Source: Trametes villosa
Taxonomy: Eukaryota > Basidiomycota > Agaricomycetes > Polyporales > Polyporaceae
Assembly (NCBI GenBank): GCA_002964805.2
Contig: PUDQ02000102.1
Coordinates: 186,001-250,000, forward strand
Length of the DNA: 64,000 nucleotides
Direction of reading: 5' to 3'
Positions 33,618 to 61,894 of the stretch are shown piece by piece. The translations under genes were made by a program, and so were the position numbers. Within the stretch, counting starts at the first letter, position 1. Each line of letters begins with the position of its first letter. The notes under the pieces were generated by a model, which saw only the letters and a list, made by a program, of their open reading frames with translations, was not told the DNA's origin and made no database searches.

Positions 33618-33630
33618 GAAAAACCATCCG

Positions 33631-36890: not shown

Positions 36891-37095
36891 AGTTGGTACT
36901 ACAATTCTGCTGCCAGCCGATGTCAGTAGATTTCATGGTAAGCCTGCTGGAGGAATATACGCACACTGTGGACGGGCTGGGTGATGGTGGGATGTAGGAG
37001 GGAAGTATGTTGCCCCGCGGTACGCATGCCCCCTTTCATGTGCTAGACACGTGATTACGGCGCATCCCTCGCGGATTTCCCTACGCGTCGGCCTC

Positions 37096-37365
37096 CTACT
37101 GTCGACTATAAGGCCGCCATGTACTGTTGAACTCGCGGATAAGACCTGAGGTGTACAATGAGATGATCACGAGCATACCAAGAGAGCAATTGATCGCGTC
37201 GCAGAAGCCCCGATAGAACTCAGTTTGTTGAACCAGACGTTGTCCCTTTCCGCGCAAGAACATAGCCTCTTCCTCTCCACGTATGAACGTTATGGTGATG
37301 GTGTCCGTATACGAACAGCGAGAGAAGGGCGAATAAGCGCCAGGGGTTCTGAGAGCATCTCCCAA
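37096..37365 (-). CDS. Small putative membrane protein or exon
   Basis: An open frame of about 90 residues holds AINCSLGMLVIISLYTSGLI, a likely membrane helix, close to its C-terminus. A spliced 5' extension to about 37465 is possible (donor GTACCT, acceptor GAGCAG). It lies between two minus-strand genes of the left arm and might be a lost exon of either. Nothing recognisable; low confidence. Confidence 0.3.
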   Translation of the reverse strand: MGDALRTPGAYSPFSRCSYTDTITITFIRGEEEAMFLRGKGQRLVQQTEFYRGFCDAINCSLGMLVIISLYTSGLIREFNSTWRPYSRQ

Positions 37366-37526
37366 ATTGAGCGCCGTGAGCGCTGCTCGGCAGTCAGCGC
37401 TCGTCAGCGCCTAGGTACCTCGGAGGTCGCGGCGACAAGGACATTCAGATACACGTTCTGCAGGCTACTAATGTACAACAAACCCCCAAAACTTCGGCCC
37501 TCCCACAAGTCCCCCTCACCATCCAG

Positions 37527-38852
37527 CTAGTATGAATAGGCCCTAGCAAGCAGCTCGCTTCCGCGGAGGAGGCGAACATACTGTGTGAGCATCTCTACGA
37601 TCGGCTCGGAAAGCTGCGATTATCCGTAGTCAGTCTCCATGAAGTACGGTGAGGTGGGAAATCCAACCTGCAACATCTCAGTGCAGCTCGCGCGGATGTG
37701 CTCGTACCCATCGAAAGCCTTGCGTAGGAGTCCGACGGGAATCTCTCTCCCATCCGCACCGGGGAGCGTGGCAGGAGTAGCTAGCGCGGACGCTTCGAGC
37801 TCCTGTAGACCAGAAGACTCGATGAGGTACACGCGCGGCACCAGGGAGGAAACATACCCGAATGAGAATGAGGGCGGCCTCGTGAGAGATCTTCTTGGAA
37901 CAGGCGCGATCACGCAGATCGTCGAACTTCGCGAGCTCTCGTTCGAACTCTTCCAACGCGACGTACTCACTTGGGAGGGAGCACCACGCTATCCCGTCGT
38001 CGATGGCGAGCTGCATAGAGTCCTGAATGATCGTAGCCCGCTCTTGAGCGAGAGCAGACAGCACTGTGAAGGGCGCCGTCGCCTGCTGTTCGACTTGGCT
38101 CCTAGTGAGCTTCCGAGCGCTCAGCAGTTGTTGGCACCACTTTGAGTCGCGCTGCGCACAATCACGGGTCAACAAGCAGCGCATCAGAGGTTTCCGCAGC
38201 TTACCTCGTACGCGATGACATAGAAAGCCGGTTTGAAGGTATCGAAGAGATCCTTCACCTGTTTGGCTTGGAGGGATAGCTGGTCGCTGCACCGCACGAG
38301 GTCGGGGAGCGACTTGCGCATGAAGACGCGGTCAGCGAGAGCAAGTCGACCCTCTCTGACCAGAACGTCGTGGAGCGTGGTACACTGGACGACGAAAGTC
38401 AACGAATAGCTTCTTCCAAAGCTAGATCGAGACTAACCTCCTCGAGGAGCGCGTTCATGCGACGATTGTCGTCGAGGGCCGTGATCACCATTGTAACCAA
38501 GAGCTGCATGGCGACGGAACTATGCGGACCGTCGCCATCTCCCCCTTCCGCATAGAGATGCTTGAGGTTGTGCCCTGCGCTTTGTAGGTCGTGCTTGACG
38601 TTCTGGCGATATTCTTTGTTCACGGCTGCGAGCCTAGAAGCGAAGATGCGGGGCCACTGCTGCCTGTCAGCGGGGAGGGAGTACGACTCTTGAAGTCTAG
38701 AACGGCGGTACAGATCAGTTGAGAATATCGACATGGAGGGAGGAGGATACTAGCCTGGCGACGCCTTTGTCAAATACTACGACAGCGTTGCGCACTGCGT
38801 CCTCGCGCTCCTGGAGACTGTTCAGCACATCTTCCAGAGGTATGTCCGACAT
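37527..38852 (-). CDS. Outer coiled-coil paralogue, left arm (pair of 55591-56867)
   Basis: A spliced, all-helical protein of about 380 residues. Landmarks, with the right-arm partner in brackets: start MSDIPLEDVLNSLQEREDAV (MIDVDVALGIMHEKEMAI); NKEYRQNVKHDL (NKQYRISVKNDL); FMRKSLPDLVRCSDQ (RLRRSMPTLRKGIQQ); RKAFDGYEHIRASC (REAFAQFKRIHMVC); last exon LSEPIVEMLTQYVRLLRG (LLRPIRETLRANTDGLRG). Introns lie at matching places, for example just before the RL(R)Q motif and before the last exon. No catalytic motif, signal peptide or membrane helix is seen. I do not know this family. Because order, spacing and introns are shared while residues differ widely, this is an old paralogue, not a recent copy. 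Confidence 0.7.
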
Positions 38853-39317
38853 CGACGAAGAGCAGATCTTTCGTGGTACTCGACAATCTTTGTGCTCAGT
38901 GGCGCAGTGCGCGGTGGTGAGTGAGAAAGCGAAGACAAGGTAAGCACTGTCCACCGCGTGCCACTCAACCACTCGGGATATCCCTCTCCACGCGTGCCGC
39001 AACGTGCACACAGGTCCTGTCACACCATCCCGTGAGCGATTCTATCACAAACGGTTCAGAATATACCTGAGACTCACGGCGCAGCATTCACGATGGCTGT
39101 TGTAGCTTTCAAGTTGACTAGCCACGAACCTACTGCATTCGCGCAGATTTCGATCGCGTAGCGTTGCGCCGCGGCAGGCTGAAAGATGAGTTCGATGCTC
39201 TGTTTAGTCTTGCATGCGCTCGCCATTCCGCTCGATACACCGCGAACATGCCAGGCTTGTAATGGCCCGGAGCCAGAGGGCTTGAGGTACAGAGCGACTG
39301 AGGACTAAGTAGTGATG

Positions 39318-39347
39318 GGCGTGCGAATCAGCAGCGACTCGCACGCC
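39318..39347. repeat. Perfect 9-bp hairpin
   Basis: GGCGTGCGA at 39318 and its exact reverse complement TCGCACGCC at 39339 enclose 12 bases. It lies in the gap between the two arm genes. Similar GCGACTCGC words occur near 34183 and 55220. Confidence 0.4.
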
Positions 39348-39576
39348 GAGGACTTTGAAGTCCCGACGGCCATTAGTGTCGCGCGCTTTCTGATGCGTAT
39401 CGCGGCGGATTCCCAAGTTGGCGGGCGTGCCCGACCCCGCCCAACCCCAACTATCTTCTCCACCTACAGTCACCCCGCCCTACCCTCTTCTTGCGCTTCC
39501 GCCTCCGTCCACAACCTGGAACGACAGACCGCTTACGCTCATTACCCCGCCGACTGGCCCTCACATTCTCTCAACT

Positions 39577-40044
39577 ATGAACGACCCGACAGCCTCGTGA
39601 GCCTCTGTTTCCATGGGTCAAAATTTTGTACTCGAGCTGACGCGGCTGGAACCGCTCACCAGCGACATTTTCGTGACCGATATCGCGTTTCGCAGCAGCC
39701 AGGAAGAGCGCGCTCACTTTAACGCCCTCCGGCTTCGGCTTCAGATGCTGTCGACTGTATACAAGGAGCTCGGGGCTCTCCTGGACTCCCTACATACGAT
39801 GCAGTCGGGGATAGAAACCCAAGTGGTCGAGCTCCAATCATACATCTCTACCTTGGCTCCTCAGATCGAAGGAGACGAGATTCCGTTGCCCCAGTCTAAG
39901 GTGGTCACGAAGAGGACGGACCAGTCCCTGCGTGGCAAACCCGGCTGGCGTTCAAAGCGTAAAATCACGGTAAGCCTGTCCACTATATGCGAGAGCTGTG
40001 TCTCAAGTCTGCAGAGTATCTTCAAGGGGCTCTCCCGCACGTAA
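39577..40044 (+). CDS. Small helical protein on the left arm, plus strand
   Basis: The body reads DIFVTDIAFRSSQEERAHF and then a heptad-like stretch (LRLRLQMLSTVYKELGALL, LHTMQSGIETQVVELQSYI). It may begin at ATG 39577 (MNDPTAS), joined by a 65-base intron (GTGAGC..CACCAG), or at ATG 39613. The end at 40044 may also be an intron read-through. It is the only plus-strand gene of the left arm outside the inner pair, and I find no mirror partner. Coiled-coil content suggests a binding role; nothing more can be said. Confidence 0.35.
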
Positions 40045-40464
40045 CTTCGGGGATCAAGTCCACCCCGTACCCCGGTTTCCGCCTCTCGTTCCCAGTGTCG
40101 CCGTCGCTCCTTGCACCGTACCTCGATTTGCTCTACTACATCCGCTTTACTACACTATCGCTGTCGTGTTACCGCCGCTACCTTCTCTTCGTGCTCCGCA
40201 TTGCACCGTCACCGTCCCGTCTATTCGCCCCGCTAACACCCCACATTTCGCTATCGTCAGGACTTGGATTGGAGTTGAGGTTCGCTTATGTTACCTTGTC
40301 TTCGTATACCACCTCGGTCATATGTTGTTCGCCATCCCGCCCAATAGGCGAACTCGTGCATCGCTCATTTCACACCGAGCCGCAATAGTCGGGACGTGTA
40401 TGGATTCGTCGGACAAACAGGGTAATGTACACAGGGCTTCGGAGAACGGACCAGGTTTATGGAT

Positions 40465-41678
40465 CTAGGACGGCACGATGACATGAAGGAGTGAGCGGAT
40501 AAGGACGAGAAGGATTCGGATGACCCCGAACATGACGTTGGCGCAAAGCGACACCACGACGGCATATCCGGGCGTATAGCCCGAATACTGCCCGCCGTGA
40601 AACATGTACGCGTCGAAGTCTTGCGTGGCCCGTTGAGTCGTCAGACTTTCCGGGAGATGTTGAGCGATCATACGAAGTTCGTCGACGAAGACGGCGGGGG
40701 ACACAGGATTGAAAACCTGTCGGCAACCGGTGGGCTAGCGCGCCCGGATGAGAGGCTTAGAACGTACCTCATCGGCGGGTACTCCTACGAGGACAATGCG
40801 AGCTTCTCCGACGTTGTCAAGGCATTCGCGGTCGATGAACCCTATACGAAAGTGTTAGACGCGTGGGTACTGAGATCGGGAACCGTAACTATGCTCACAA
40901 ATCAGCGCTTTGGCGAGGATTGCGCGCAGTGTCTCTTCGGGGATGGTCAAATCCTCGCGGTTCTGACCGGAGTAGAGGCGCTAGTAAGGCGGTCATTTGG
41001 ATGAGCGGGAGAGAGGTCGTGGACAGTACTCACCGTAGCCAGGGAGACGCGGTTGGCAAGGACATCGAGAATGAAACGAGAGGTGGTGGTGGGCGGGTAG
41101 ACTGCGGGCCCTTCCCGTCGAGTGGGCGTCGCGAGGGGTACGTCCTGGGGCGCTGCGCTATGGCGAACAGAAAACGAAGGCTCGCGAGAGGCACGGCTTA
41201 ACGCGATGCCGTCGACATCTCGGTCGCTGAGAGGAAGGAACTCGCACTGTATGGGGATGGTGAGCTGCAGCTCAACGCGGGCATGAGCATGACAATGACT
41301 ACGCACGTCGCTTTCAGCATCGGCCATTTCGACGTCCGAGCTAAGCTGCTGAGCTCCAGAGGCCGAGCTGGGGACGGAATCCGGCATGATACGGGCCTCG
41401 TCGAGAGAACGAGTGTCCCCGTGAGGCTGCGGGGCGACGTCGTTCGGTGGCTCGCCCCGTTCAAGGCGTGCAAACCAGGTGTCCGGGTTGAGCGCACAAT
41501 GCTCCTTCAGGGCGGCATCGTTATCCCACGCAGGAGTTGGGTTGCTTCTGGGCTCCCGATTGACGTTGCGGAGAGCCTCGTAGCGGGCAAACCCAGCATC
41601 TGGATTGAGCGCACAGTGCTCTTGCAGAGCGGCGTCGTAGTCCCACTCCAGAGCGCTGTTGTTGCTGTTGTGCTCCAT
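40465..41678 (-). CDS. Arm membrane-protein paralogue, left (pair of 53849-55066)
   Basis: Four exons and about 360 residues. The first nine codons (MEHNSNNSA) lie inside the inner inverted repeat and are the same in the right-arm partner. Just after the repeat edge the protein reads LEWDYDAALQEHCALNPDAGF (partner PPFDYAAAMEEHHAKFPDSAF). Here this motif occurs twice: WDNDAALKEHCALNPDTWF follows. After a disordered middle comes a conserved core: SRFILDVLANRVSLATV (partner RRWVRFLENPRSVAIL), LRAILAKALIWFIDRECL (LRYLFKDAIDWYLKEHGI). A C-terminal hydrophobic segment (AVVVSLCANVMFGVIRILLV) should span a membrane, and the protein ends HVIVPS. No known domain. Introns follow SLATV, AKALI and PADE. 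The order core-then-membrane-tail is shared with the partner. Confidence 0.72.
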
Positions 41679-43034
41679 GACGGTCTGGGAGGTGAAGATG
41701 GCTGATGGAAGGGTGGATGGCGATGAAAGGAGAGCGGGGGAATGGGCGGTCGTTGGACGGGATGTTCAAGAGCGCGTTGAGAGGTGCTGGGAGTGGCACC
41801 TTCCTATCCTCACCGCTCCGGGCACGAGATAGACATGAGGCCCAGGATTGTGCGTGCGCGTACATCACAGCCGATCGGGCTTCCCAGCCGTTCGCCGGAG
41901 GTCAGTCGAACCCTGTATCGTGGTGCCCTGGAGACGGCGCGACGGCGCGCTGCCTCCTCGGACGGGATAGGTTCCCTACAGACAGGTAGCCCGTTCAGGG
42001 AATTCCCGAGTGGCACATAAGCACACGACGTACCCGAACTTGAGCATCGAGGCGCGCCGCCCAATCCAGAGCTGGGACCGTCGGCCATGACGCTACCATG
42101 AGGACGGCGTACCAGGACCGCCGGTTTCATTTGGCGCCGCAGAACAAAGGCAAGCCGTGGCGGATGCGAAACGACGGGTCCCATGGGCGAACTCCACCTC
42201 GGGCTTCTACCTGTAGGATGGCCTCGGTGCGCCATGGCGGGGCCTGGAATGAGAGCATGGCCGGTGTGTATTAATGGAGTAGCCGACGAGAGAACTCACC
42301 GTCCGAAGCATCGTGGGGGATGGCACCCAGCACGAGACCGTCGAAGCCCCGTCCTGTGCATGCTGGGGTTGATGCAGGCCGAATGTACGTGCCCTCGTTC
42401 CGTATGGATCGGACCGATATCCACAGGAGATATCGTGCCACGAGCTCGGATTGGCCGGATTGATCTCCGCGCGGAGGCAGGCGAAATAACGTCGTATACA
42501 GTCGTCCAGGGGATAGCGAGAGGGCGGACAGACGAGGCAGCAGTATATGCTAGGAGTAATCGTGCATGGTCGGGATTAAGTCTGAATAAGCGCTCGAGAA
42601 AGCTTGTGAAAGCGAAGGGGATTATCACCAAATCCAGCAATCCAGCTAATCCGGCCACAATCCGCAGGGAGTCGCGCCTCCGGGGACTCTGCGCGAAAGT
42701 CACAATGTGACGTAACCAGCTGCTTTTGGGCGGCTCCCGCATAATTCTGCTCCTTTCGCTTCTAGTTGTTGGTCCGCCAACCTTAACCTCGTAGGTTATT
42801 CACCGACCGTCTCCGCACGTTGCGGTGTGCTCCCTCCCTCTCCCTCACACCTTCACTAGACCACGCTACCACCGGAGAAGCTACCTCGCAATCCTTTGTC
42901 CTCAGAACACCTGCCGCATATATCATGGCTCTCGGGACGCGCAACGCTCTCAGCCCCCCGCCGCCTCCAAGCTTTCCTCGATAGCCTCCTCTCGCCTTTG
43001 TTCGCCCGTCCGCCTACTCGCCCTCGACAATGCC
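41652..43034 (+). repeat. Inner inverted repeat, left arm (1,383 bp)
   Basis: Reverse complement of 52493-53875, the same length to the base. I found no difference in any stretch I compared, and every open frame in the two copies gives the same protein. The left edge lies nine codons into the outward gene (start codon 41678); the right edge lies two bases after the start codon of the inward gene (43030). It therefore is the whole intergenic, 5' control region of a divergent gene pair, plus the first codons of both. Confidence 0.95.
42296..42742 (-). CDS. Putative membrane peptide gene inside inner repeat, left copy
   Basis: An open frame of 148 residues begins MREPPKSSWLRHIVTFAQSP and has a strong membrane helix (VAGLAGLLDLVIIPFAFTSF, about residues 30-50). 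It continues as a polar region and may splice near its end to a further exon (donor GTGAGT at about 42300). The same frame lies on the other strand of the right arm. With no homologue known to me, it is a candidate only; it could instead be transcribed leader sequence. Confidence 0.35.
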   Translation of the reverse strand: MREPPKSSWLRHIVTFAQSPRRRDSLRIVAGLAGLLDLVIIPFAFTSFLERLFRLNPDHARLLLAYTAASSVRPLAIPWTTVYDVISPASARRSIRPIRARGTISPVDIGPIHTERGHVHSACINPSMHRTGLRRSRAGCHPPRCFGR

Positions 43035-43970
43035 GTACGCTACCTACCTCAGTCGTAAGTGCGATCATGAAGTACTAGACCTAGTCCTAACTCCCTCCAT
43101 CATTCACCTACAGGTCTTCAGCGAGCCCTTGGCGACCTTGCGAAACAAGACAAGGAGTCCGCCTCCTACCTCGAGATTGAACAGAACAGTGCGTCCTGGA
43201 CGACCATCTCGTGCGACGCCATCACTCACACGCCTACAGTTCGCGCCCAGTACCGGAGCGATAATGTGACGCACGGGCCGCGGTATCGCGACCACATCCT
43301 CGACGCGTTGATGCGAGAGGTGCGTCTTGTAGATATCCGCTTGCGCGGTACCCTTCATCCCAGCGTCCCCCTAGGCCCGTTCTCGTCGCGTGATCATGGA
43401 CGTAGCATCCGGCTCTGCGCGCGTCTTGATGACCCCTGCGGGCCTTCTCTTGTACGTACTTCGTCTGGGTACTGTCCTGCTATGCTAATGACGATGGTGG
43501 CAGCTATAAGGAGCTAGGCACAATCCCTTTGTACGACGCCGATCATCCGCGTATGAGGTACATGACTATACGAAAGGTGTGTTTCGATGCTCTTGCCCCT
43601 GTGTGCTCGCTGATGGACAGTGGCCTACTTAGCTCCGTGGCCATTCTCGGGTCCTGCGCGACGTAATCGGGGAGATAGGGCGTATCTTCGCCGAGTTTCG
43701 CCCTGATCACGTCCCGCGCGAAGATGGCAGCGATCTTCCTGACGCGGTAAGTGCTTCTCTGTAACTTACACACATCTCCTCAACGTCGACGCAGATCCAA
43801 GACGTTCGCAATGATATAGACCATCTGAAAGCTCAGGTATGTGTGCGCGCCTTCGCTCGCGAGTTAGATGACTAATTTACCGCCGTCAGAATACCGAGCT
43901 CGAACTCGAACTTATGTTCGAGGAGGGTGACAAGCAGCGCTTGCTCCAGCGGTTGAGCCTAGTCGATTGA
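43030..43970 (+). CDS. Inward coiled-coil paralogue, left (pair of 51215-52497)
   Basis: Seven short exons give about 210 residues. The start codon sits at the very edge of the inner repeat (MP shared, then divergent). Exon 2 has SRLQRALGDLAKQDKESASY (partner ERLQQVLSHAVKNNQQY), then GPRYRDHILDALMRE (partner MSPYRSAVRDAVVEE), VLMTPAGLLLYKELG (partner LYLTPDGAYL), and a helical C-terminus with IQDVRNDIDHLKAQNTELEL ending RLSLVD. All introns are 47-60 bases with GT..AG. No domain known to me. It points to the centre, away from the outward membrane-protein gene with which it shares the 1.38-kb control region. Confidence 0.7.
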
Positions 43971-44315
43971 GCTTCAGGGAGAACCGGCAGGTGAGCGTAG
44001 TGAGGCGGTTTTGCGGCGAAGCGGTGGCGTATCCCGATGTACAGTCTTATATTTATAATCCAATCTACTCCCTACACCTACGTCTACATGCTCCGCTCTC
44101 GGGGTGGGCCTCTCTTCGCGTAGGTTGTAGTAAGGCACGTGAAGACATGCATGGTGGACTTCAAGCTCGCGTCGCCGGGCCACAAGCAGTGCAGCCCCCA
44201 CGAGCGTAGACGTAGACGTCTGAGTCTCTAGGTCTGGTCCGCGCACGTGCTCGAACCGTCTTGACTGAGCAGGCGCCCCGGATTGTGAGGACTATAAACC
44301 ATGATATTCCACACA

Positions 44316-45665
44316 TCACGCGTACAGCAAGCTATAAGGACAAGGACGTAACGAGACACTACACAGTCGCTGGGGAGCTCGGCAAGTGCGCCGCTGGAAA
44401 GCGCCTTGAGAGAAGTACTTCAAGCAATTCGACGCTGGACACTCACTGCTCGTCGACCCGGGCTCAGGAGAACGCTTCTTCTCCTGCGTCTTCTCCAGCT
44501 TCTTCGCGCGACCTTTGTAGGTGCGCATGGTATCCTTAGTGACCCACGACGGCTCTCCGTTGGCGCAAATGTTGAGGATATACCCCTTCAAGTACGGGTG
44601 GGGATGGCCGAGGTCGACCGAGAGCCACTGGGAGGCAGAAGTACGGAGCCAAGCCTGCTTGGTGCCGTGAGGGGATGAGTGGACGTACAGGTCGCCGAAG
44701 CGAGCCGTTTGGATCTCCGGGGGCGCAGAGAGGATGGCTTGGCTTTCCGACGAGAACCAGGTGGTCTTCTCGCCTCTGCTGCGAATGCCCCGCTCCTGAC
44801 GGGAGACGCTCATCTCACGCGAGTTGACGTCCGAGCTACTAACGACACAGGGGTAAGTATCATGTCCTCCCGCGACCCAGGAATGCCTACATGTGTGGCG
44901 CCTCAGGGGCTAACACGAAGGGCACCTCTGACGGGATAGATGGCGACGCGGGCCCGGGGGCGGGGGGTGATATAGTACCAGCCGAGACGGGGAGTGCGTT
45001 CGCCACTGTCCTGCTGCCACCGGTGTCCGTTGACTTGGAAGTAACAGGCGGGACCTGCGGCGCGATATCCTCCGCATGAGCCGCCGAGACGGTCGTAGCC
45101 TGGACAGCCTGATAATAGAGCTTTAATGCACTGTAGCATACGGGGAGGTCGGAGCGACATACACTTCGAGCCGGGAGAGGTACCGAGGTAGCGCGAGTGG
45201 GTTTGGCCCCTGGGTTGCCCGCGGGAGGCAAACTAGTACCGGGATGGTGAGAGGTGTCGTTCTGGGGATGTATCGAAGCGTTACTCACCCTTGAATCAAC
45301 CGCTGTTGCTGGACTAGATGGCGATGCCGCAGGATCACATACGAGGGCTTGAGCGGTTTGCCTTCGTCGCTCTCAAGCAGATATGCGGGGAACGGAGAGT
45401 ACTTTGCGTATATCGTGATCGGCTTGTCGGGCTCATACATGTTGACCTGGAAGTAGTGGCGAGGCTGCTGAGCAGGTGATGCGGGTTTGACGGAGGTTGA
45501 GATGATCCTGCAGCAACGCACCTGCGATTTTATACATCTCAAAGAGTGTCCCGTACAAAGAGCGGTTGGGTCGACAACTTGTCGGCAGACGTGGGCGTGG
45601 ACGTGAAGGGACAAGCTTTGTGGAGCCACGAGAGTGACCCGGCTCGGCCTTACCCATGGCCACAC
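44316..45665 (-). CDS. Unrecognised Pro/Ser-rich protein, element centre
   Basis: Several exons can be joined on the minus strand: PRHYFQVNMYEPDKPITIYA near 45450, then AKYSPFPAYLLESDEGKPLK; a Pro/Ala/Thr-rich exon (45285-44890); and, after a 52-base intron, GEKTTWFSSESQAILSAP, FGDLYVHSSPHGTKQAWL and GYILNICANGEPSWVTKDTM, followed by a Lys-rich helix. The last part has the look of a small beta domain found in transposon-linked hypothetical proteins of mushrooms, but I cannot name it. The start (45665) and the join near 45300 are uncertain; a very short apparent intron there may mean a frameshift and decay. Confidence 0.45.
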
Positions 45666-46166
45666 ACCTGGACCTCGGAGGAGATTGCCGGTCTAGATAA
45701 TCACACCGCCAGCCTCCGGACCGTGCTTCCGTAGCGGAAGCTGCACACGAGGAATTCATCACTGAACGAAGCGGCCGGATGGGATGAGCGAGATAATGCA
45801 ACATAAGGACAGTGGTACTACAAAGGAGTGGCTGTGGTACTACGAAGGAGTGGCTGAGGTCGGATGGTAGGAAGGTGGGGGCCACGACGATGGGCATAAT
45901 GTCACTACAAAGGAGTGCGGGATACGAAGGAGGGGCTAAGTCAGCGGGGCGCAGGCGCGGAAGAGATACACAGAACGGTGAGGGTGGAGCTGAGAAGCGG
46001 GGCGCGGACGTAGACAACGACGTGAGGTTCCGGGGTTACGAACAGAGGGGAAGGGCGCGACGACGGAACCATCTTCTGACGGCCTCTCGCGAGGGGGCCC
46101 TCAGAAGTAGAGGCCGAGAGGGTTGTGCTTGCCATTGTAGTCTCTGGCAAAGCTGTAGAGCGACTA

Positions 46167-48005
46167 TTAGAACACCCTCACAGAAGCAGAAGATGCGACG
46201 TACTCGAGCATCGTCTTGTCGTGAGAGAAGTCGTAGTCCACCTCCTTCACGCCCAGCTGCTTCTGGTCGTACTGGTGAAGCGATGCAAGCCAGGCCGGGT
46301 CGTACGCGTTGCGGGGCAGGTACTTGACGGGAGGGCGGCGATTCGAGGTTCTGTCAGAATAGAACCGGTTGTGCGGCGCGGATCCAGGGCTGTTTTGATC
46401 CACGTCGTTCATGCGAAGGCGGCGGTAGAGGCTGTCGAAGACACGGAGCCAAGGGGTTATGCGAGGGTTGCGCCACTCCTTCCTTAACACTCCGTATTGC
46501 GCAACGCCGTTCCGGTTGTCGGACTCGTCGGAGCTCATCCCCTTGACACCAAGTGACATGAGCATTGGGATGTGGCGTCGGAGGGGAGCGTAGGCATGGG
46601 CAACCGCGAGGCGGCGGTAGTAGAGCTATCACGGAGTCAGTGAGGTTCAGTGGAGCGAAGCGAAAGGGTGCCCTCACGTTGCGCTGACGCTCGGATCTGT
46701 TCAGAAGCCTCTGCCTCTCACGCAGCTTCTGGGGGTCGAGCGCCGACATCTGCCACCTGTGGCACAGATACTTGAGGTGGCCGCTAAAGAGCTCATCCAC
46801 CCGCTGCTGCGGCGCATCCGGATGAAGCTCCATGAAGTGGTCAACGAAAACTTCGATGACGCAGGCATTCCACGTAGAATGCGAGGGCGAGTTGAGATCC
46901 GGACGAAAGGTTTGGACGGTGCAGCAAGGGCCCTGGTGAGGGTCGTACTCGAGCACGGCCTCGTCGGTGGGCAGCATCTCGTCCGTGAGTGGATCCTTGG
47001 CGTTCTTGCGGTTCATGAGCTTCCGAGTCAACGCGCGAACCTGATCCTGGAGAGCGGAAACATGTCAGCAGGGCGGTATGGGCAATGACAGGACATGTCT
47101 TACAGCCAAGGTAACGTCGTCTGGGTCACGTTGCGTCGGCAAACCTTTGAGCTTGGGCTCTTGGGTACGTCCGCGACGAGAACGGCGAGGGATCGGGACA
47201 AAATCGGGAGCGTCCACGTTCATGTAGTCAGGACCATTCGGCGGCGCGGGGGGAGCAGCCGGAGGGGTGGTGGTGCTAGACGCGTCCGAGCGCTCGAAGA
47301 AACCCCTGGCCTGCAGGGTCGAGAAGAACTTGGTTTGCTGGTCCATGATGTCGACGAGACGCGAGATGTTGTGATTCATCTCGTGCAGGTCGTTCTGCAT
47401 GTGCGACACCTGCAATTGTGTCGCGAACGTCTGCGGAGGTTCCGTAAGCTAGGCATGGATGACTACAACAAACTGACTGATACCTGAGAGGACCGGGGAG
47501 GCGATCGCTGCGGAGGGTTCCCCCTCGCACGAGCCTTCCCTTTCGTGCGGGTAGTGTGCGCTTCATCCTCGGCGTCGGCGTCCTCGGCGTCCTCGGGATT
47601 CTCGGCGCCGCTGAACAAGCCGTCGTCGTCGTCGTTCTCTTCCTCGACGAAGCTACGTCGGTCGGTTGCAGAATTCTTGCGAGAGGGGCCATTCGCGTCG
47701 TCGGGGTATCCCGGCGCCGACGAAGCCCTTTCGCCGGCTGGCGCGCGACCGGTAGGAGCTTCGATAGCTCGGATGATCCCCGGTTGGCCTCCTTGCGTGT
47801 TTGCGGCGAACGTATTGGCGTGGAATGGGACGAAGTGCACAGTGTTAGAGGAGCCAGACGCTTGGCGGTCTTCGGCGGATACCTGACGACGGCGCTTGAA
47901 TATGGTTGGAACGTCCTTTCCCTGCATCGCGTCGTCATCGCCTGCCTCCGTCTGAGGCGCGGAACGCTTGCTAGCGGAGATGAAACTGGACAGAGGGGTA
48001 TACAT
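46167..48005 (-). CDS. Basidiomycete repeat-associated hypothetical protein
   Basis: Four exons, about 530 residues. N-terminal region acidic and disordered (VEEENDDDDGLFSG). Then follows a coiled coil (NDLHEMNHNISRLVDIMDQQ), ALTRKLMNRKNAKDPLTDEM, a helical stretch (VIEVFVDHFMELHPDAPQQR), and a conserved C-terminal block with KGMSSDESDNRNGVAQYG, EWRNPRITPWLRVFDSLYRR and PRNAYDPAWLASLHQYD. I recall this GMSSDE..W..P....L...D block, followed by R.P...LP.N.YD..W, from multicopy hypothetical proteins often near transposons in mushroom genomes; no biochemical role is known. Introns follow PRSSQ, DVTLA and SERQRN. The start at 48005 is provisional; an upstream exon reaching 48256 is possible. Confidence 0.65.
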
Positions 48006-48915
48006 GAGCTTTCTTTCAAGATGAAAAAGAGCGCTCGCGCGTCGGAGCTGACCTGCGGGGCGGAACGAACGGGGCTGTTTGATGGAAGATTCCCAGACTC
48101 TGCGGGATCGCTAGAAGGTCGACAGTGCATAAACATCGGGTATCGAGATGCGTAGGTGCGCAGAACAGAAGAGGACGAACCATTAATGTGACCCATGGCA
48201 ACCTGTTGCCTCTGAATAACGTTGGGGTATCGTAGCTGCTTCGGACCTGCGCCCATGAACGTGAGCTAACGGTGAGTATAAATGCCGTTTATGCTCAAAC
48301 CTGGAGGAGAGCCGGCAGGAGTCGTGGGCGCGTAGCTAACAGACAAATAGGGGTCTTGAATCATCATAGCATCTGCGAGGCTCTATAAGACAGGCTACTG
48401 GCTATACGCTCGGCGGACATACCGAGGAATCGGCTGGAGTTATCTGTATCTTCATTGTCGTGGGGCATACTGAGCGAAGTCGAGCGGATTGAGAGCTGTG
48501 CGAAGTGTGTGGGGAGAAGAGTAGTTGCGAGGGCGGACGGTCAAGCGCAGGTGCGGCAGGCTTCACATACCTGTATGCGTATACGGACAAAGGGAAACCT
48601 AGCCCGGTGCCACTCCGGACTGCAGGACGGGCCGAAGTGGCATGAGGCGCCGCCGATCGCTCATCTTGGAGCGCGCCGGCTGGTGTGAAGTCGGGGCCAG
48701 AGAGATGTGAAGGGTCTACTCGACCCTCCCCTTCTCGCACAACGTGGGCGACATGAGGTAGCAACGTCGGCCGGAACAGCGGATATGCGGCAAGGCAAAT
48801 AGCATGCTCATGGCCTGAGGTACACGATGCTAGATACAGATGTAGGAGACAAAGGGTGCGGGGGCGATGCAGATGTCCGTAAATCACGAGGCGCAACTCG
48901 CTGACCACCGCGAAC

Positions 48916-50845
48916 CTACAGGTCGGGATGCGCGACGGGTTCTCCGAGACGGTGTGCGAAGTGAAGGTCTTCGCGACCAGCGGGTTCGACGACACCGTGC
49001 GCGACGCCTGCTGCCAGCTCAGGAAGTACGGAGAACAGGAACTGGCGTAAGGCGAGACGTCCGAGTTCTTGCAGGTACGCCGCGATCGCACAGAGGTACC
49101 CGACGAGTACGAGCGATCCGTGATGGCACGCGACGCCGAACGCCCTCGCGGTACCCAATGCGATCGCGCCAGCACCATACGCCTGTCAGAAGTTCTTAAG
49201 ATGAACATCGAGGAACGTATTCGGGAGGAACACGTACATAGAAGACGGTGGTATCGAGGAGAGCGGCCCACGGGGTCTGCGAGCACGCCCAGACGCAGCC
49301 GATGGCGACCGCTATCAACAACAGAACGGCGAAAAAGTACAGCGGAGCTTGACGTGGCTGCGAAACGGTTAACGGAAAATGCGATCAAGGAAGGGGCTAC
49401 GAACCTCGAACGACTGCACAAGATCCACGACAGACTCGCGGAGGCTACTACCTCTTTCTTGAGCTACAATCGCCCCGGTGTCAGGTAAAGTGCAGTCACA
49501 TCGCAAGGCAAGTGGGCACATACTAATCCTGGCCCTCCAGATCTTGATGTACGTGTCCTGGCCGCAGGCTGCGGTACCCGCCGCGATGTAACAGAGCTTG
49601 TCTTGGATAGTAGCCTGGATGGGCGTCAATACGGAGATATACAGACTTTCTTCGCCGCCAAACGTACGTCGACCGCCTGCACAACATCATCTGTTACAGC
49701 GCAGAGATACCATGAGTACATTGTTAGCATGGCCACTGGGCACTCACTGCCGTGCTCGAGGTTCTGGCACACCTCGCCGGACGTGGTTTCCCAGATGCAG
49801 ACCTGGCCACAGGTCGTCCCGGAGATGATACCGTGCCCCTCATGAATGTACTTGACTTGTAGATGGTGCTTCGACCGCGGGGCGTTGTCGAACTTGAAAG
49901 ACTTCTTCGCTTTCGCCTTCTTCTGCGGGCCGAGAGTGTAGAGATCGAGGCCGTCCTTGACGTTGTAAAGCACGATGTAGCGATGACGAGCGCTGATCGC
50001 GGCTCCTCCGCTACGCGAACGCGCATGAGTCGAAGTCCGGGACTGGAAATCGGAAGGATACCTGCATCAAGGGCTTCGCAGTCGGCATCGCGATATGCCA
50101 ACGGGCCTCCCAGGTTGACGTATCCCAGCAACTACACATTTTGAGCTCACGACAATACGTCCTGGAGAAGCGAATACTCTACCTTATCCCGTGAGCAAGG
50201 TAGGAAACCACCAAGGACGTGCCGTCTTCATTGAACTGTAGGGCTACGGCGCGCAGCCGCGGGTCCTCTTCGTCCAACCCCTTTGGCTCGGGCGGGCGGG
50301 CAAGAACGACGTCGCCAGAGTAGTGATCTAGACGTTGTTAATTATTGTTCAAATCGAGGATAGAGACGAGATTCACTGGGTGTCCTTTCTCTCGTGATGT
50401 GCACCTCTTCGCCCATACTGACCGCCAGTCTGCCCGAGGTTGAGTGGTAATCGAGGTAATGGATAGTACTCCTGGCCCCCAAGTGAATATCATGCTGCTC
50501 GCTGTTGTTCTACTGGGCGTTAGGAGGGAACCTACGGTCCATTCAGAGTGCCAGAGAGCTTACCAAGGAAAACTCGTGTATTTGTTGCAGAGAACCGTTG
50601 GCACAGCCAACGATAACGGTGTCAGGAAGTGTCGGATGCCAGAGGACGTAATCCACGCCGCTTCTAAATAATGTGCGGTAAAGCTGGCGTCCTTGCAAGA
50701 CGTGCCAGATGACGAGAACGTAGTCGTCCCCGCCACTCGCCAGATACGCGCCGTTGGGCGAGAAAGCGACGCAGTTCACAGTGTTGCTGTGACCACCTTT
50801 CAGCTTGTGCAGCTCAACGTAAGCAGATACAGGGAAGCTCGACAT
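48916..50845 (-). CDS. WD40-repeat protein with C-terminal membrane region
   Basis: About ten short exons. It begins MSSFPVSAYVELHKLKGGHS, then NTVNCVAFSPNGAYLASGGD and DYVLVIWHVLQGRQL, a classic WD40 blade. More blades follow: IHYLDYHSTSGRLAVSMGEE, VALQFNEDGTSLVVSYLAHG with CWDTSTWEARWHI, KYIHEGHGIISGTTCGQVCI with WETTSGEV, and LCYIAAGTAACGQDTYIKIW. After a linker there is a membrane helix (LYFFAVLLLIAVAIGCVWAC) and, if splicing continues past 49196, a second hydrophobic part (GSLVLVGYLCAIAAY). Otherwise the protein ends at 49196. WD40-membrane genes of this shape are multicopy in mushrooms; the role is unknown. It sits at the centre of the palindrome, 370 bases from the inward right-arm gene. 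Confidence 0.7.
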
Positions 50846-51214
50846 GGTGGTCCTAGCAGGCGGCGGTTGCAAGCAGAGAAGAAAGCTCTGAGTCTCAAGC
50901 TGGGAGGGGTGGCGTTCACCAGTCGGCCTCAGCGAGTGCCCACGAGTGCGATTGGTTCCGAGTCCTTCTGGAGTGCGCGTGTCTGGCACGTGATTCACGA
51001 GCGCGGCTAGTACTCCGATTCGTGCGGATCCAGAACCGGCCGACGGCTGATCATAATCTCCCAGAAGCCAAGGCACGAGCAGATCCCAACGCGCGTTGTA
51101 GCAGGCCGCAAAAGCTGGAAGTTCTAAGTTCACCGAGGACCTTGGAATACGATACATCTGTCTCGAGTAGTGTACTACGCCTACACTCCAACAACCCCGC
51201 TCCCTCGACCTCAC

Positions 51215-52497
51215 CTAGACGTCCGGGAGGTCAGCGTACTCGAGCTCGCTGCTATCGTCCCCGGCCGGACTGCGGCGTTCGAAGGAGCCGCTGTACGCGA
51301 CAGGATCGGCTTCCCCGGGAGCGCGGCTTCCCGGGTACATGAGCTCAACGTCGGCATCGTCGTCCTCCGGGTACATGAGGCTCCCCTCGTACTCCGAGTC
51401 GCTACCTGTCTCGTATTCGTAGAGGTCGTCGTCGATGATGATGCTGCCTTCGCGGCTGGAGTGACTTCCTTCGTACGCGGTGAGTGCGACCTCGCTGTCG
51501 TAGACGATGTCGTCTTGATCCTGCGCGGAGACGTCGGTCTCCGTGGCGGTCATCTCATTGAGTTGTACGCAAAACTCGTCGACTTCGCGTGTGAGGTCGT
51601 TGAGGCGCACCACGAGACTGGAGTTCTGTACCGATGGGTGAGCTCTTCGAGTGTATAGAGAAGAACGCGTATCGCACGTACATCGGCGCGCAACTTTTGC
51701 TGGGACTCTAGGTAGGAGCGGATCTGTCGTGCACGGCTGAGGACCAGGAGGAGACGCAGCTAGAGAGAGGTACGTACCGCCTGCGGCAGGCGCTTCACAA
51801 AATGCGTGTCGGAGTCCACGGGGTCGAAGGACCGGAGAGTAGTCTGGATGGACCTGACGATGGCTGCGAGAGCAACGTACTCGTCGATGGCCTGGGAGCC
51901 GTGAGCATTCTGTCGAGCGACAGAGCAAACAACTCACTGGCTGACGAAGCGGGCCGTTCGTTGGGTTCGGGGCGGCGGCACCATGATAGCCGGCAGGAAT
52001 GGGAGCGAAATGAGCGAAGCTGGGGGTTGATACGTCATCAGCTGAGAATGTTTTAAACTGCGGCATGGTACATACAAGTACGCGCCGTCCGGGGTAAGAT
52101 ACAAACGCGGGGAAGCGTATTGTATATTCAGGACAACGTGTCCGAGGAGCATCTAGTAGGAGGTGAGCCTAGCACAAGCCGAACGGGAATTTTGAGATGC
52201 TCACCTCTTCGACAACAGCGTCGCGCACTGCACTGCGATACGGAGACATAGGGGTGACGGTGCTTCTCAACACCGTCTTGCGAACTACAACATAGGGTCA
52301 GTGAACATGAAGGGATTGTAGGCACGAGAAATGAGCGTACTGAGACGAGGGAGATTACGGTAGAGGACATATTGTTGGTTGTTCTTGACGGCGTGGCTGA
52401 GAACCTGCTGCAGACCTGGAGCGCAAAGATGAGCGTTGTAACTGCACAGGTAGGTGATCGACCTACGCTCATGAACATAGTACGGGGCCGAAGGCAT
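51215..52497 (-). CDS. Inward paralogue, right (pair of 43030-43970)
   Basis: The start codon is at the edge of the inner repeat (MPSAPYYVHE; only the first codons are shared with the left partner). Spliced exons give ERLQQVLSHAVKNNQQY, IRKTVLRSTVTPMSPYRSA, VRDAVVEEM, LYLTPDGAYL, FKTFSADDVSTPSFAHFAPI, a helical part (RQIRSYLESQQKLRADVRAI, then LVVRLNDLTREVDEFCVQL), and a long acidic tail (DDDLYEYETGSDSEYEGSLM ... EYADLPDV) which the left partner lacks. An intron of 41 bases near 51640 is needed to keep the frame; if it is not real, the gene carries a frameshift there. No known domain. Order of motifs and first introns agree with the left partner, while residues are mostly different. Confidence 0.65.
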
Positions 52498-53875
52498 TGT
52501 CGAGGGCGAGTAGGCGGACGGGCGAACAAAGGCGAGAGGAGGCTATCGAGGAAAGCTTGGAGGCGGCGGGGGGCTGAGAGCGTTGCGCGTCCCGAGAGCC
52601 ATGATATATGCGGCAGGTGTTCTGAGGACAAAGGATTGCGAGGTAGCTTCTCCGGTGGTAGCGTGGTCTAGTGAAGGTGTGAGGGAGAGGGAGGGAGCAC
52701 ACCGCAACGTGCGGAGACGGTCGGTGAATAACCTACGAGGTTAAGGTTGGCGGACCAACAACTAGAAGCGAAAGGAGCAGAATTATGCGGGAGCCGCCCA
52801 AAAGCAGCTGGTTACGTCACATTGTGACTTTCGCGCAGAGTCCCCGGAGGCGCGACTCCCTGCGGATTGTGGCCGGATTAGCTGGATTGCTGGATTTGGT
52901 GATAATCCCCTTCGCTTTCACAAGCTTTCTCGAGCGCTTATTCAGACTTAATCCCGACCATGCACGATTACTCCTAGCATATACTGCTGCCTCGTCTGTC
53001 CGCCCTCTCGCTATCCCCTGGACGACTGTATACGACGTTATTTCGCCTGCCTCCGCGCGGAGATCAATCCGGCCAATCCGAGCTCGTGGCACGATATCTC
53101 CTGTGGATATCGGTCCGATCCATACGGAACGAGGGCACGTACATTCGGCCTGCATCAACCCCAGCATGCACAGGACGGGGCTTCGACGGTCTCGTGCTGG
53201 GTGCCATCCCCCACGATGCTTCGGACGGTGAGTTCTCTCGTCGGCTACTCCATTAATACACACCGGCCATGCTCTCATTCCAGGCCCCGCCATGGCGCAC
53301 CGAGGCCATCCTACAGGTAGAAGCCCGAGGTGGAGTTCGCCCATGGGACCCGTCGTTTCGCATCCGCCACGGCTTGCCTTTGTTCTGCGGCGCCAAATGA
53401 AACCGGCGGTCCTGGTACGCCGTCCTCATGGTAGCGTCATGGCCGACGGTCCCAGCTCTGGATTGGGCGGCGCGCCTCGATGCTCAAGTTCGGGTACGTC
53501 GTGTGCTTATGTGCCACTCGGGAATTCCCTGAACGGGCTACCTGTCTGTAGGGAACCTATCCCGTCCGAGGAGGCAGCGCGCCGTCGCGCCGTCTCCAGG
53601 GCACCACGATACAGGGTTCGACTGACCTCCGGCGAACGGCTGGGAAGCCCGATCGGCTGTGATGTACGCGCACGCACAATCCTGGGCCTCATGTCTATCT
53701 CGTGCCCGGAGCGGTGAGGATAGGAAGGTGCCACTCCCAGCACCTCTCAACGCGCTCTTGAACATCCCGTCCAACGACCGCCCATTCCCCCGCTCTCCTT
53801 TCATCGCCATCCACCCTTCCATCAGCCATCTTCACCTCCCAGACCGTCATGGAGCACAACAGCAACAACAGCGCT
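52493..53875 (-). repeat. Inner inverted repeat, right arm (1,383 bp)
   Basis: Mirror copy of 41652-43034. Its edges lie two bases after the start codon of the inward gene (52497) and nine codons into the outward gene (53849). The exact same length of both arms, without any indel, points to a recent copy event or continuing gene conversion. Confidence 0.95.
52785..53231 (+). CDS. Putative membrane peptide gene inside inner repeat, right copy
   Basis: Same 148-residue frame as the left copy, starting MREPPKSSWLRHIVTFAQSP with one predicted membrane helix. It lies between the divergent starts of the inward and outward genes and is read in the same direction as the outward gene. A GTGAGT donor near 53228 and a CAG acceptor near 53283 suggest splicing onward. 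A candidate only. Confidence 0.35.
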   Translation: MREPPKSSWLRHIVTFAQSPRRRDSLRIVAGLAGLLDLVIIPFAFTSFLERLFRLNPDHARLLLAYTAASSVRPLAIPWTTVYDVISPASARRSIRPIRARGTISPVDIGPIHTERGHVHSACINPSMHRTGLRRSRAGCHPPRCFGR

Positions 53876-55066
53876 CCGCCATTCGATTACGCCGCCGCCA
53901 TGGAGGAACATCACGCGAAGTTCCCGGACTCTGCATTCCCTGGCCATGTCGCGCCTTCTGCTTGTATCCCTCAACTCAACACGTCTTCGCTGCCCGTCGT
54001 GGATGCACGCCCGCAGGTTGCAGTTCCCCCTAAGCCGGTATCTTCCTCTCCGGAGGGCGACACGGGGAATGAGGCTGTATGTGATCCCATCCCGTCGGCA
54101 GTCCCTCCCTGATGGCTCCTTCTCAGTATCCCGCCGTTGCCGCTCCCTCGACTGCGCGGTTGACTTCCACGGTAGGTTCTATTTTCTCGCTGCTGCTGAC
54201 AACATTCACTGACGCTTGTGCTCCTAGGTCACGTACAGCGACCTGCCCGGCGGATACGATAGGGTTTCCGTCGTCGAAGTCGAAGTTGGCCCTACCATCA
54301 AGGGTGCTGAAGACAGAAGCAACTCGAGGCGCTGGGTGAGGTTCCTGGAGAATCCCCGTAGCGTCGCAATCTTGGTGGTACGTGTTCTCTCATTCACGCG
54401 CATGTTCATTCCTTCATCGCCGTTCCTATTTAGGTCACTCCCATCGCTGCAGACAACTTTCATTCGGACGTCGCCATAACTCATAGAAAGCTCCGCTACC
54501 TATTCAAGGACGCTATAGACTGTGAGACGCTCTGGCTCCTTACTACTTCTACATCACTGAGAGATCATTTCCTTTCAGGGTACCTGAAAGAGCACGGCAT
54601 CGCCGTCAAAGGAGGCGTACCCGCTGAGTTCATCAAGGTGGACACGAACACTGTGAGTCACGGTCGCGACTGCCGCTCCTCGCCTGACTGAGACTGTTTT
54701 CAGGACGCGCACGACGCCAGCGCGCCGGTAGGAGTGACCTACATGCGCGTCTCTCCTTCAGGACTCGACTTCCGCGCCCCCACCGCCGAGGCCTATGCGC
54801 CATCGACCGCGGGAATCATCTTCGCCCTCGTCGCCATGGCCTCAGTCACGTTCTTGGCAGTGCAGGTTTATCTCCTCGCTCATGGCGTCGGCGGAGGCGT
54901 GTACGTCCAAGCTGCACTCAGGATCTTCATCACGGCCTGCGACGCGATTCACGTCGTCATCGACATCTTGCGTCAGCTCGCTGTGCAGATGCTCAAGCTC
55001 TTTGGCAAGGCCGTTCTGCACTTCGACCGCATTCTCGCCCGCGCCCGCGAATTGGGGGAGCTTTAG
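53849..55066 (+). CDS. Arm membrane-protein paralogue, right (pair of 40465-41678)
   Basis: Six or seven exons, about 310 residues. MEHNSNNSA is shared with the left gene; then PPFDYAAAMEEHHAKFPDSAF shows one copy of the motif that occurs twice in the left gene. After a Pro/Ser-rich part come TYSDLPGGYDRVSVVEVEVG, RRWVRFLENPRSVAIL, ITHRKLRYLFKDAIDWYLKE and GGVPAEFIKVDTNT. The C-terminal third holds two hydrophobic stretches (IIFALVAMASVTFLAVQVYL and GGGVYVQAALRIFITACDAI), so it is probably membrane-bound, and it ends in a helix (LARARELGEL). Introns follow TGNEA, LTST, VAILV, KDAID and DTNT. No known domain. The differences from the left gene are far beyond allelic. Confidence 0.72.
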
Positions 55067-55590
55067 GCTCTCCGGAGGTGTAGCTCTTGTACGATATTGA
55101 TTGCTTGAACTAGTTGTGTACTGCGGGTGCCTGAATAGAGTTTTTGGGTGAAGTCATAACACGCTGCGTAAATAGCGGGCCGGCGGGACCGGGACGCGAG
55201 ATTGACTGAACCTTAAACTGGCGACTCGCTGCTCGCCGCCTATGCGGGTGAGTTATCGGAACCTCGACAGCTTCGACCACAACCGCCTGCTCCCTAGGAG
55301 TGCAAGCCCAATCCGCCTCCTATGCTCGCATCCACCTCACAAAACGCCGCTCTACACATCAATGTCGGAGGAGACCTTCTGGTGCCAATCGGCCGTCGCC
55401 CTGCGCGAGAACGCCTCGTGTCTTCCGCCGCTTCACAAACAGATCTAGAGCGCGTGGCGAGAACGGAATGCGAAGGGAGAGACAAAGGGCCTTTGTGACG
55501 AGTGGCTCACCTCGGCAACAATATCAGGTGCGTATCGTGCGCACTTTCTCCTACTCTGCTACCTCACCTACTCTCTCCCCAAGTCCAGAA

Positions 55591-56867
55591 ATGATTGACG
55601 TTGACGTTGCTCTTGGTATCATGCACGAGAAGGAGATGGCGATACGGTCTGCCTGCATCGACTTCGACCTAGCAATCTCTACGTAAGTCTCCTAATGCCA
55701 AGCCTACGCGACTTTGTCTGACTGGAATCGTCAAGGTTGAGGCAGACTCTACAACTCCCCGCCTCGCGGGACGCATGGGCCGCATCCTTGGCTACGCGGA
55801 TGAATTTCCTCAACAAGCAGTACCGTATCTCAGTGAAGAACGACCTGTACGCGCTATCTACTCGCATGCGACAAATCTACATCCCGCAAGACGCCCAGTC
55901 CGACCTAGTGTCTGTGCTGGACGAACGCGTAAAGCAGGCGACGGGATTACTTGTGATAGCAGAGTCGTTGCTGGTCGATGTGAGTTTTCTGCTTTCCCAT
56001 GCGTGTGTAGCTCACCGGTGTTTCAGTGCGAGGCTTTATACACCAAGCGCGTAGGGGAGAAAAATCTCGACGCCTACGAGCGCGTTCGCCTCCGCCGCTC
56101 CATGCCCACGCTCCGCAAGGGCATTCAGCAAGCTCGAGAGCACAGAGACGCTATGCGGACCATCATGGACGAGTGGCGAGAGTACTTCCGCCTCTTCTCG
56201 TGCGAGGTGAGCATATCAGTTGATCGAGGTGCTGCGATGGGTGACACAATCTATGTAGGAGGAGCTGGCCAAATTCCTTCAGCTCCTTCACGCTCGCAAG
56301 TTAACGAAGACGGCAGCAGAGGGTATAGTAGCGCCCGTCCTCGAGCGCGTCGTCCAGGCCAATGCCACACGCGACGAGCTCATCAACAGCAGCTCTGCTA
56401 TCGGGTTGAGCGTCGAGACCCTCTGGCTGCAACGTGCTCGTCACGGCATACGCGAACGCGAGGTCCGGCGTATTGTCCGCCAGTACGACGCGCTGTTGGA
56501 CAGAGCTGACGCAGAGAAGTCCACTCAAGCCCTCGTCGTGAAGGAAGCCGAGGTCGGTCTCTGCAGCTCAGCGTTTCACATCCTCTGACTTTCATGCGCA
56601 GGCACTCGCCGGCCTCGCTCGCTCGCCGGTCAGCATCGAGGGCCCAGACGGGGGCCAAATCTTCTTCGACCGTCTACGTGAAGCGTTCGCACAGTTCAAG
56701 CGAATCCACATGGTGTGCGACTCCATGCAGACCGTCAGTCTTCGACGTTCTCTCCATGTTTCGATTCTAACATAACTCTTCGCTAGTTGCTCCGTCCTAT
56801 CCGCGAGACGTTGAGAGCCAACACCGATGGTCTGCGCGGCGACACGATCACGCTGGTCGTTCTGTAG
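55591..56867 (+). CDS. Outer coiled-coil paralogue, right (pair of 37527-38852)
   Basis: Six exons, about 340 residues, nearly all helix. Start MIDVDVALGIMHEKEMAIRS; after the first intron RLRQTLQLPASRDAW and MNFLNKQYRISVKNDLYALS; then CEALYTKRVGEKNLDAYERV with RRSMPTLRKGIQQAREHRDA; KLTKTAAEGIVAPVLERVVQ; RQYDALLDRADAEKSTQALV; a late exon with GQIFFDRLREAFAQFKRIHM; and the short end LLRPIRETLRANTDGLRG. Introns match those of the left partner. No catalytic motif, signal or membrane helix. It stands about 470 bases upstream of the transposase gene on the same strand. Confidence 0.7.
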
Positions 56868-57339
56868 GTGCTGTACGCAGCAGTAGGCGTAGATGGTCCT
56901 TGGTGCACGTGCTCTGCAGCTTCCACAATAATATGTCCTTGTCGCACGTGCTGTAGTGCCGCCGCTCCTCGTACTCCCATCCCAATCCCAACCATCCCGC
57001 CAGACGGGGCTCTGTTCGTGAGCCCCGAAGTTGTTGGTAACATAGGAGCTCTGGCCTCCCACCAGATCTTGTTGAAGACGGGACGCGGCGTTGATCGCAG
57101 CTCAAGCCCGCAAGGTGAGTGATCGATATCGCCGAGGAGGATGAATCGATGACGTCTCTAGAATGTGCCGCGCCCGCCTTTGTTCCGTCACGCTGCCACC
57201 GATGAGCGCTGTGCCACTACCGCTACCATCGCCCTTCCGCGCACGCTCATTAACCGGTCTCCCTCGGTGTGTTTCCGCCCTAACAGACGTGAGTGTCGTG
57301 CACAAACCCGGTTAAAAACTGTTCTGATTCTCGATAGAT

Positions 57340-61893: not shown

Positions 61894-61894
61894 G

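Follow-up and report, generated by a model that had tools for sequence, protein, structure and literature searches.

Identical inner inverted arms and a probably invertible centre within a 30-kb EnSpm/CACTA-type transposon of Trametes villosa

The stretch of Trametes villosa DNA considered here (64,000 nt, hereafter the window) corresponds to positions 186001–250000 of contig C99, in a genome assembly of 46.7 Mb and 140 contigs, and harbours two long inverted arms that are entirely identical. These enclose a 9.5-kb centre and, as judged from sequence, constitute the inner pair in a nested set of two inverted repeats carried by an EnSpm/CACTA-type transposon, a container that was overlooked in the initial annotation. 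The element lies wholly inside the window, its left end being eight bases past the stop codon of a gene taken, by eye, for an acyl-CoA synthetase. Gene models were produced with our own splice-site and codon-usage script, and are computed and transcript-free. In window positions, the features of the element are:

33560..63977, forward strand: whole element, EnSpm/CACTA-type giant transposon, 30,418 bp, with ends CACAGGGGACAAAGCC.. and CACCGGGGACAAAGCC.., flanked by CGA/CGA
33557..33559 (left) and 63978–63980 (right), unstranded: target-site duplication CGA, read at the element flanks
33631..34117, forward strand: terminal direct repeat D1, left copy, 487 bp, 1 mismatch to the right copy
34467..35606, forward strand: outer inverted arm, left, 1,140 bp, 4 mismatches to the right arm
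35743..36890, reverse strand: gene N, hydrophobic N-terminus (by eye), with relatives in C20 (25 % amino acid identity, E-value 7e-22) and C9 (30 %, E-value 3e-36)
37620..38852, reverse strand: gene M_L, paralogue of M_R
40465..41678, reverse strand: gene O_L, left outward, with a C-terminal hydrophobic stretch (by eye) and its first 9 codons within the arm
41652..43034, forward strand: inner inverted arm, left, 1,383 bp, identical to the right arm
43030..43970, forward strand: gene I_P, left inward, its C20 relative standing on the right side
44316..45440, reverse strand: gene X, centre, with a related gene in the C20 centre (43 % amino acid identity)
46101..48005, reverse strand: gene Y, centre, of a family that co-occurs with a transposase match on 12 contigs and has homologues in Trametes and Cerrena
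49369..50845, reverse strand: gene WD, centre, WD40 protein
51215..52497, reverse strand: gene I_Q, right inward, its C20 relative standing on the left side
52493..53875, reverse strand: inner inverted arm, right, 1,383 bp, identical to the left arm
53849..55066, forward strand: gene O_R, right outward, with a C-terminal hydrophobic stretch (by eye) and its first 9 codons within the arm
55591..56867, forward strand: gene M_R, 65 % to Trametes pubescens TRAPUB_13840
57400..61695, forward strand: transposase gene, Transposase_21 (tnp2), its 3′ end at 61657 or 61695, depending on the gene model
61895..63034, reverse strand: outer inverted arm, right, 1,140 bp
63470..63956, forward strand: terminal direct repeat D1, right copy, in the same orientation as the left

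With regard to the inner arms, the initial annotation had described them as equal in length and free of differences, with edges nine codons into the outward gene and two bases past the ATG of the inward gene. Base-by-base alignment of 41652–43034 to the reverse complement of 52493–53875 (1,383 versus 1,383 bp) bears this out, revealing neither mismatches nor gaps. The outer edge of either arm lies 27 nt (9 codons, MEHNSNNSA) inside the outward open reading frame, and the inner edge is formed by ATGCC, i.e. the ATG and 2 bases of the inward frame. Nor do the arms align far into the genes, as identity falls right at both edges. Outward it collapses immediately, to 27/50 over the first 50 bp and then to 19/50 and lower, and inward it drops to 13/50 over the first 50 bp and then mostly to 8–18/50 across 1.45 kb, with the exception of 43385–43484, where it rises to 28/50 (43385–43434) and 21/50. 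A search of the genome, in which copy counts are lower bounds, returned at least 2 copies of the arm sequence, both at this locus.

The genes beyond these edges had been put forward as homologous but very different, and this holds for the inward pair and for the M pair, and only weakly for the outward pair itself. Once arm-encoded residues are removed, profile comparison of I_P with I_Q gives a probability of 86 and an E-value of 5e-6, and M_L and M_R, the next genes outward, share 29 % of their amino acids (E-value 3e-28). For O_L and O_R, by comparison, the profile match is confined to 28 columns (probability 3.5, E-value 0.012), and the two proteins are 35 % alike across their first 89 residues, 9 of which are arm-encoded. 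The accompanying proposal is supported, namely that each arm represents the complete shared 5′ sequence of two divergent genes and has stayed identical as the genes themselves drifted apart.

The class of the element is apparent from its ends and its transposase. CAC..GTG termini in inverted repeat are present in 3/3 elements (that of C99 and two relatives, on contigs C20 and C9), as are 3-bp target duplications, which read CGA, TCT and TGG, respectively. The C99 transposase matches PF02992 (Transposase_21/tnp2) with an E-value of 1.7e-14 (54 bits, cut-off 28.6); the Pfam scan covered this protein, and the transposases of C20 and C9 were assigned by comparison with it. As regards the superfamily signature of catalytic D, D, E residues with C(2)C and H(3–4)H, motif reading gave LCSVC (C(2)C type) and S[A/S]DGFNPY in the transposases of all three elements and, by eye, a candidate HxxxH..ER arrangement in the predicted proteins. 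In PMC12730594, CAC..GTG ends with 3-bp duplications are given as consistent with EnSpm, for Puccinia families, and on sequence grounds the C99 element is a member of this superfamily. Plavaka elements require TGT..ACA (A) or CATCA..TGATG (B) termini, and the present element ends in CACAG/CACCG. Pfam scans of 10 window proteins and the transposase, with the small predicted gene at 39613–40044 lying outside the scan, revealed no tyrosine-recombinase captain domain that would indicate a Starship, and no piggyBac transposase or herpesvirus genes that would indicate a Teratorn-like element. D1 is ruled out as a target duplication because it is located inside the CAC ends.

A terminal block of ~420–510 bp is directly repeated inside the inverted ends in 3/3 elements, and in C20 the end sequence recurs as 30-bp copies, inverted to each other, on either side of this block, which gives it the look of having flipped at one end. 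AACATGG-type motifs are commonest in the first and last 500 bp of the C99 element (33560–34060 and 63477–63977; counted with no shuffle control), and are also found at the C20 ends and, less clearly, at those of C9. Their placement resembles the subterminal repeats of EnSpm elements.

The two relatives, reached via protein searches of the genome with M and O, follow the same plan as the C99 element:

C20:594900–630354: C20 element, 35,455 bp, target duplication TCT
C9:89651–117508: C9 element, 27,858 bp, target duplication TGG

In C20 the outer arms measure 2,785 bp and the terminal direct repeat 511 bp (C20:594933–595443 and 629811–630321), and the inner arms extend over 1,799 bp with 3 mismatches, all within the final 13 bp. 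These inner arms include the opening 61 codons of each O gene and the first ~20 residues of each I gene, and the corresponding models are identical over their arm-encoded parts, i.e. the first 61 residues of O_L/O_R and the first 20 of I_P/I_Q. The C9 element has outer arms of 2,888 bp and a terminal direct repeat of 421 bp (C9:89697–90117 and 116986–117406); neither a second inner arm nor matches to X, Y, WD and I_Q were found in it. As it retains at most one inner-arm region, it is uninformative on inversion. Two inserts are present inside the C9 element (C9:95610–98427 and 104163–106767; L035 and L036), with ~910-bp inverted arms of their own that are 84 and 80 % alike, one splitting M_L and the other adjoining the I_P match.

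Within each element (C99, C20 and C9, respectively), mismatches between repeat copies amount to 4/1,140, 2/2,785 and 5/2,888 for the outer arms and 1/487, 0/511 and 0/421 for the direct repeats; the arms are homogenised within each element. Between elements, no alignment was obtained for the inner arms of C99 and C20, nor for any of the outer arms, with the exception of ~30 bp where the C20 outer arm, at its outer tip, overlaps the terminal motif. The terminal 500 bp align weakly, and the transposase DNA aligns at 67–71 %. The suggestion in the initial annotation that conversion is confined to the control region fits this pattern, the inner arms being 99.8–100 % identical within an element and unalignable between elements. 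At the protein level, same-type pairs of C99 and C20 match with E-values of 3e-19 (I_P), 9e-19 (I_Q), 2e-12 (O_L) and 1e-28 (O_R). For M the C99–C20 values are 2e-61 (M_L) and 1e-63 (M_R), and the three M_R range from 1e-63 to 4e-94 among themselves, as against 1e-22 to 2e-43 for the six M_L/M_R cross pairs. Since the same-type M matches are the stronger, the left and right copies of M probably predate the divergence of the elements. The sole matches of O_L to O_R within an element (3e-9 and 2e-37) both include arm-encoded residues.

Comparison of the gene orders of C99 and C20 (strands as signs; Tnp, transposase) reveals a difference that is limited to the centre:

C99: N-, M_L-, O_L- / arm / I_P+, X-, Y-, WD-, I_Q- / arm / O_R+, M_R+, Tnp+
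C20: N-, M_L-, O_L- / arm / I_Q+, WD+, Y+, X+, I_P- / arm / O_R+, M_R+, Tnp+

In C99 the I_P type thus occupies the left side and in C20 the right, the reverse is true of the I_Q type, and X, Y and WD are reversed along with the I genes; N, M, O and the transposase are unreversed. A single inversion with both breaks in the arms explains the two orders, and, as all five centre genes are opposite whilst the outer genes are the same, the centre has been inverted between the arms since C99 and C20 diverged. The initial annotation had anticipated that the centre would flip on recombination between the arms, giving the inward genes new outward partners, and it is such an inversion, with its re-pairing, that is observed between these two elements.

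As to which orientation is the older, transposase matches occur on at least 17 contigs (35 of 94 candidates scored) and Y matches on 18, with both present on 12. In 9/12 of these (C99, C111, C88, C116, C24, C47, C18, C1 and C106) Y is 5′ of the transposase and on the other strand; in 2/12 (C20 and C10) it is also 5′ but shares the strand of the transposase, and in 1/12 (C100) it shares that strand and is 3′. With opposite-strand Y in 9 of the 12 contigs, the C20 orientation is probably derived, and the C99 element probably carries the older one. WD matches at an E-value of 1e-6 are found on 11 contigs, every one of which also has a transposase match. The order Y–WD–transposase in the strands of the C99 element recurs in C111, C1, C24, C47 and C18 in addition to C99 itself, and C40 and C3 show WD and transposase in the C99 arrangement with no Y match; C20 is reversed, and C10 and C100 are arranged otherwise. 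Further transposase–Y pairs, 9–28 kb apart, are located on C111, C10, C100, C88, C116, C24, C47, C18, C1 and C106, and around a dozen giant EnSpm elements or their remnants are probably present in the genome.

It is likely, in our assessment, that homologous recombination between the inner repeats of this transposon occasionally inverts its 9.5-kb centre and keeps the arms identical. The mirror layout would have originated in one old inverted duplication of an I–O–M unit, after which the coding parts diverged and gene conversion, together with crossover, would have kept homogenising the non-coding parts. Conversion tracts would end where coding divergence blocks pairing, which would place the arm edges at the start codons. 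With the start codons of both divergent genes, and the sequence upstream of them, contained in each arm, either orientation would leave each gene intact behind an unchanged promoter. Inversion should therefore carry little cost and be able to happen repeatedly, and this near-harmlessness may explain the persistence of such a repeat. A site-specific inversion system would call for a dedicated serine or tyrosine recombinase, and none was found by Pfam among the 10 window proteins and the transposase, a result that covers predicted and scanned genes. Host recombination is therefore the likely agent.

Several points weigh against this reading. Only two of the three elements keep both inner arms. 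One inversion between elements whose proteins are ~25–65 % alike could represent a single old event, and arm identity could stem in part from assembly or polishing. Moreover, as the homology of O_L and O_R beyond the arms is weak, an origin by inverted duplication rests mainly on M and I.

Also to be counted among these points, a recent insertion of an element with repeats already identical would yield identity without continuing recombination, the arms having been equalised in a single event, when the element was created or moved by copying. Divergence is similarly low (0–0.4 %) for every repeat pair of an element, as from one common age. We nonetheless consider this unlikely, given that inner and outer arms cannot be aligned, and terminal blocks only weakly, between elements whose transposases can still be aligned, such that repeated homogenisation along each lineage would be needed. 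In addition, the C9 element looks decayed, with its centre not found and its inserts bearing diverged arms, yet its outer arms are almost free of mismatches, although the arms of the inserts may already have differed on arrival. The inversion itself, furthermore, requires arm-to-arm recombination. A selected, phase-variation-like switch, in which inversion would re-pair or re-time the expression of O and I products, is in keeping with the partners swapped between C99 and C20 and with the C20 arms, which encode the starts of both O and both I models. It is very unlikely, however, as no recombinase is present among the proteins scanned and as each gene has identical upstream sequence in both orientations, meaning that the flip itself switches no gene. 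In view of this shared upstream sequence the cassette system with alternative products put forward in the initial annotation is not sustained, position alone silencing none of the four genes.

A head-to-head misassembly of two diverged haplotypes, or of a collapsed repeat, is extremely improbable; misjoins classically arise at identical inverted repeats, but the transposase, N, X, Y and WD each occur once in the element, the whole is bounded by termini with target duplications, and the plan is repeated with other sequences in C20 and C9. Finally, divergent and strongly diverged gene pairs resemble fungal recognition loci, and the arms might belong to an unexceptional host duplication, for instance of mating-type or incompatibility genes, with the transposon signals being incidental. 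This is barely credible, as these genes occur together with the transposase at two further sites and no homeodomain, receptor or HET-type domain, as expected of mating-type, receptor or heterokaryon-incompatibility loci, was found in the ten proteins scanned. Beyond recurrent recombination between the arms, a broader interpretation can be advanced tentatively, and with some doubt: this EnSpm lineage may be a self-homogenising, invertible double mirror, in which terminal, outer and inner non-coding blocks are kept identical by recombination as the genes diverge, and in which the inner arms serve as universal bidirectional promoters that would make inversion expression-neutral, repeatedly changing the combinations of I and O proteins produced next to each other.

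Concerning the individual genes, protein searches with M returned 1 relative (Trametes pubescens), and the same one with a six-sequence profile (~8,000 candidates scored each time). No Pfam family matches M above cut-off, and one solved-structure match was obtained, with an E-value of 0.28; a fold of P0001 predicted without an alignment, with a mean pLDDT (predicted local distance difference test) of 52.5 and consisting entirely of helices, was set aside. Residues 270–560 of Y have 5 protein relatives (from three Trametes species, Cerrena zonata and one unnamed source), and a record of Trametes sanguinea (P0005) combines a weak beta-propeller match and a Y-like part within one predicted protein. 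Both Y and WD resemble regular members of the gene complement of this EnSpm lineage rather than chance cargo. X has a clear match on C74 (E-value 2e-34), for which the matches listed include neither the transposase nor Y nor WD, and weak genome matches were obtained for M on C106 (E-value 0.1), for O on C78 (E-value 0.7) and for X on C14, C24 and C99:387428.

Elsewhere, C47 and C48 contain 275–291 bp at 78 % to the C99 outer arm. The D1 matches on C39 belong to a palindrome (L013; C39:139140–146118) with arms of 3,344 bp that are 99.94 % alike and 291 bp apart; it holds two EnSpm-type ends, each after CTAA, and is possibly an assembly fold-back. A direct gene duplicate (MPKASAA..) is found at window 11375–12864 and 24706–26162, 88–99 % alike by block and 13.3 kb apart. 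Three near-identical copies of ~72 bp, the first of which is called as tRNA-Gly(gcc), lie at C99:213879–213949, 250282–250353 and 254266–254337, one of them starting 305 bp right of the end of the element.

Inverted repeats are known to permit isomers in the 2-micron plasmid and in herpesviruses, genomes that are episomal and, for the 2-micron plasmid, served by its own recombinase. In terms of mechanism, the nearest counterpart is the flip/flop region of Saccharomyces (PMC9731477), and by analogy the C99 element would work like it. There too inverted repeats are continually homogenised, and a 24-kb region is found in both orientations and has been repeatedly re-inverted, which is attributed to that homogenisation; it differs in being no transposon and in that its 4-kb repeats contain whole gene pairs, whereas the C99 arms are 5′ regions common to diverged genes. 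Nearest as a mobile element is Teratorn of medaka (PMC5601938 and PMC6431247), likewise a giant DNA transposon with long inverted repeats and internal copies of its terminal repeats, which exists as two subtypes distinguished by an 80-kb inversion in the middle. Teratorn, however, is ~180 kb in size and carries a piggyBac transposase and herpesvirus genes. With fungal EnSpm/CACTA elements, as portrayed in PMC12730594, the C99 element shares its CAC..GTG ends, 3-bp duplications and tnp2-type transposase. EnSpm/CACTA elements usually possess 1–2 open reading frames, and those of a red alga, at 16–20 kb with 4–5 frames, are described as significantly enlarged in the review PMC6431247; the present elements, by contrast, measure 28–35 kb, contain about a dozen predicted genes and combine long nested inverted repeats with an invertible centre. 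Among the literature matches listed, from which subscription journals are mostly absent, no fungal EnSpm element with an invertible centre is described.

The giant fungal transposons among those matches are the Starships of the Pezizomycotina, and here it is EnSpm, a classical cut-and-paste superfamily, that attains 28–35 kb with a common gene set. The layout of its inversion resembles that of the yeast flip/flop region, but is situated inside a mobile element, and the diverged copies within one genome make it possible to study how repeats keep their identity as the intervening genes change. They also bear on how a transposon may escape damage by its own inverted repeats, namely through a break region located where gene starts are shared.

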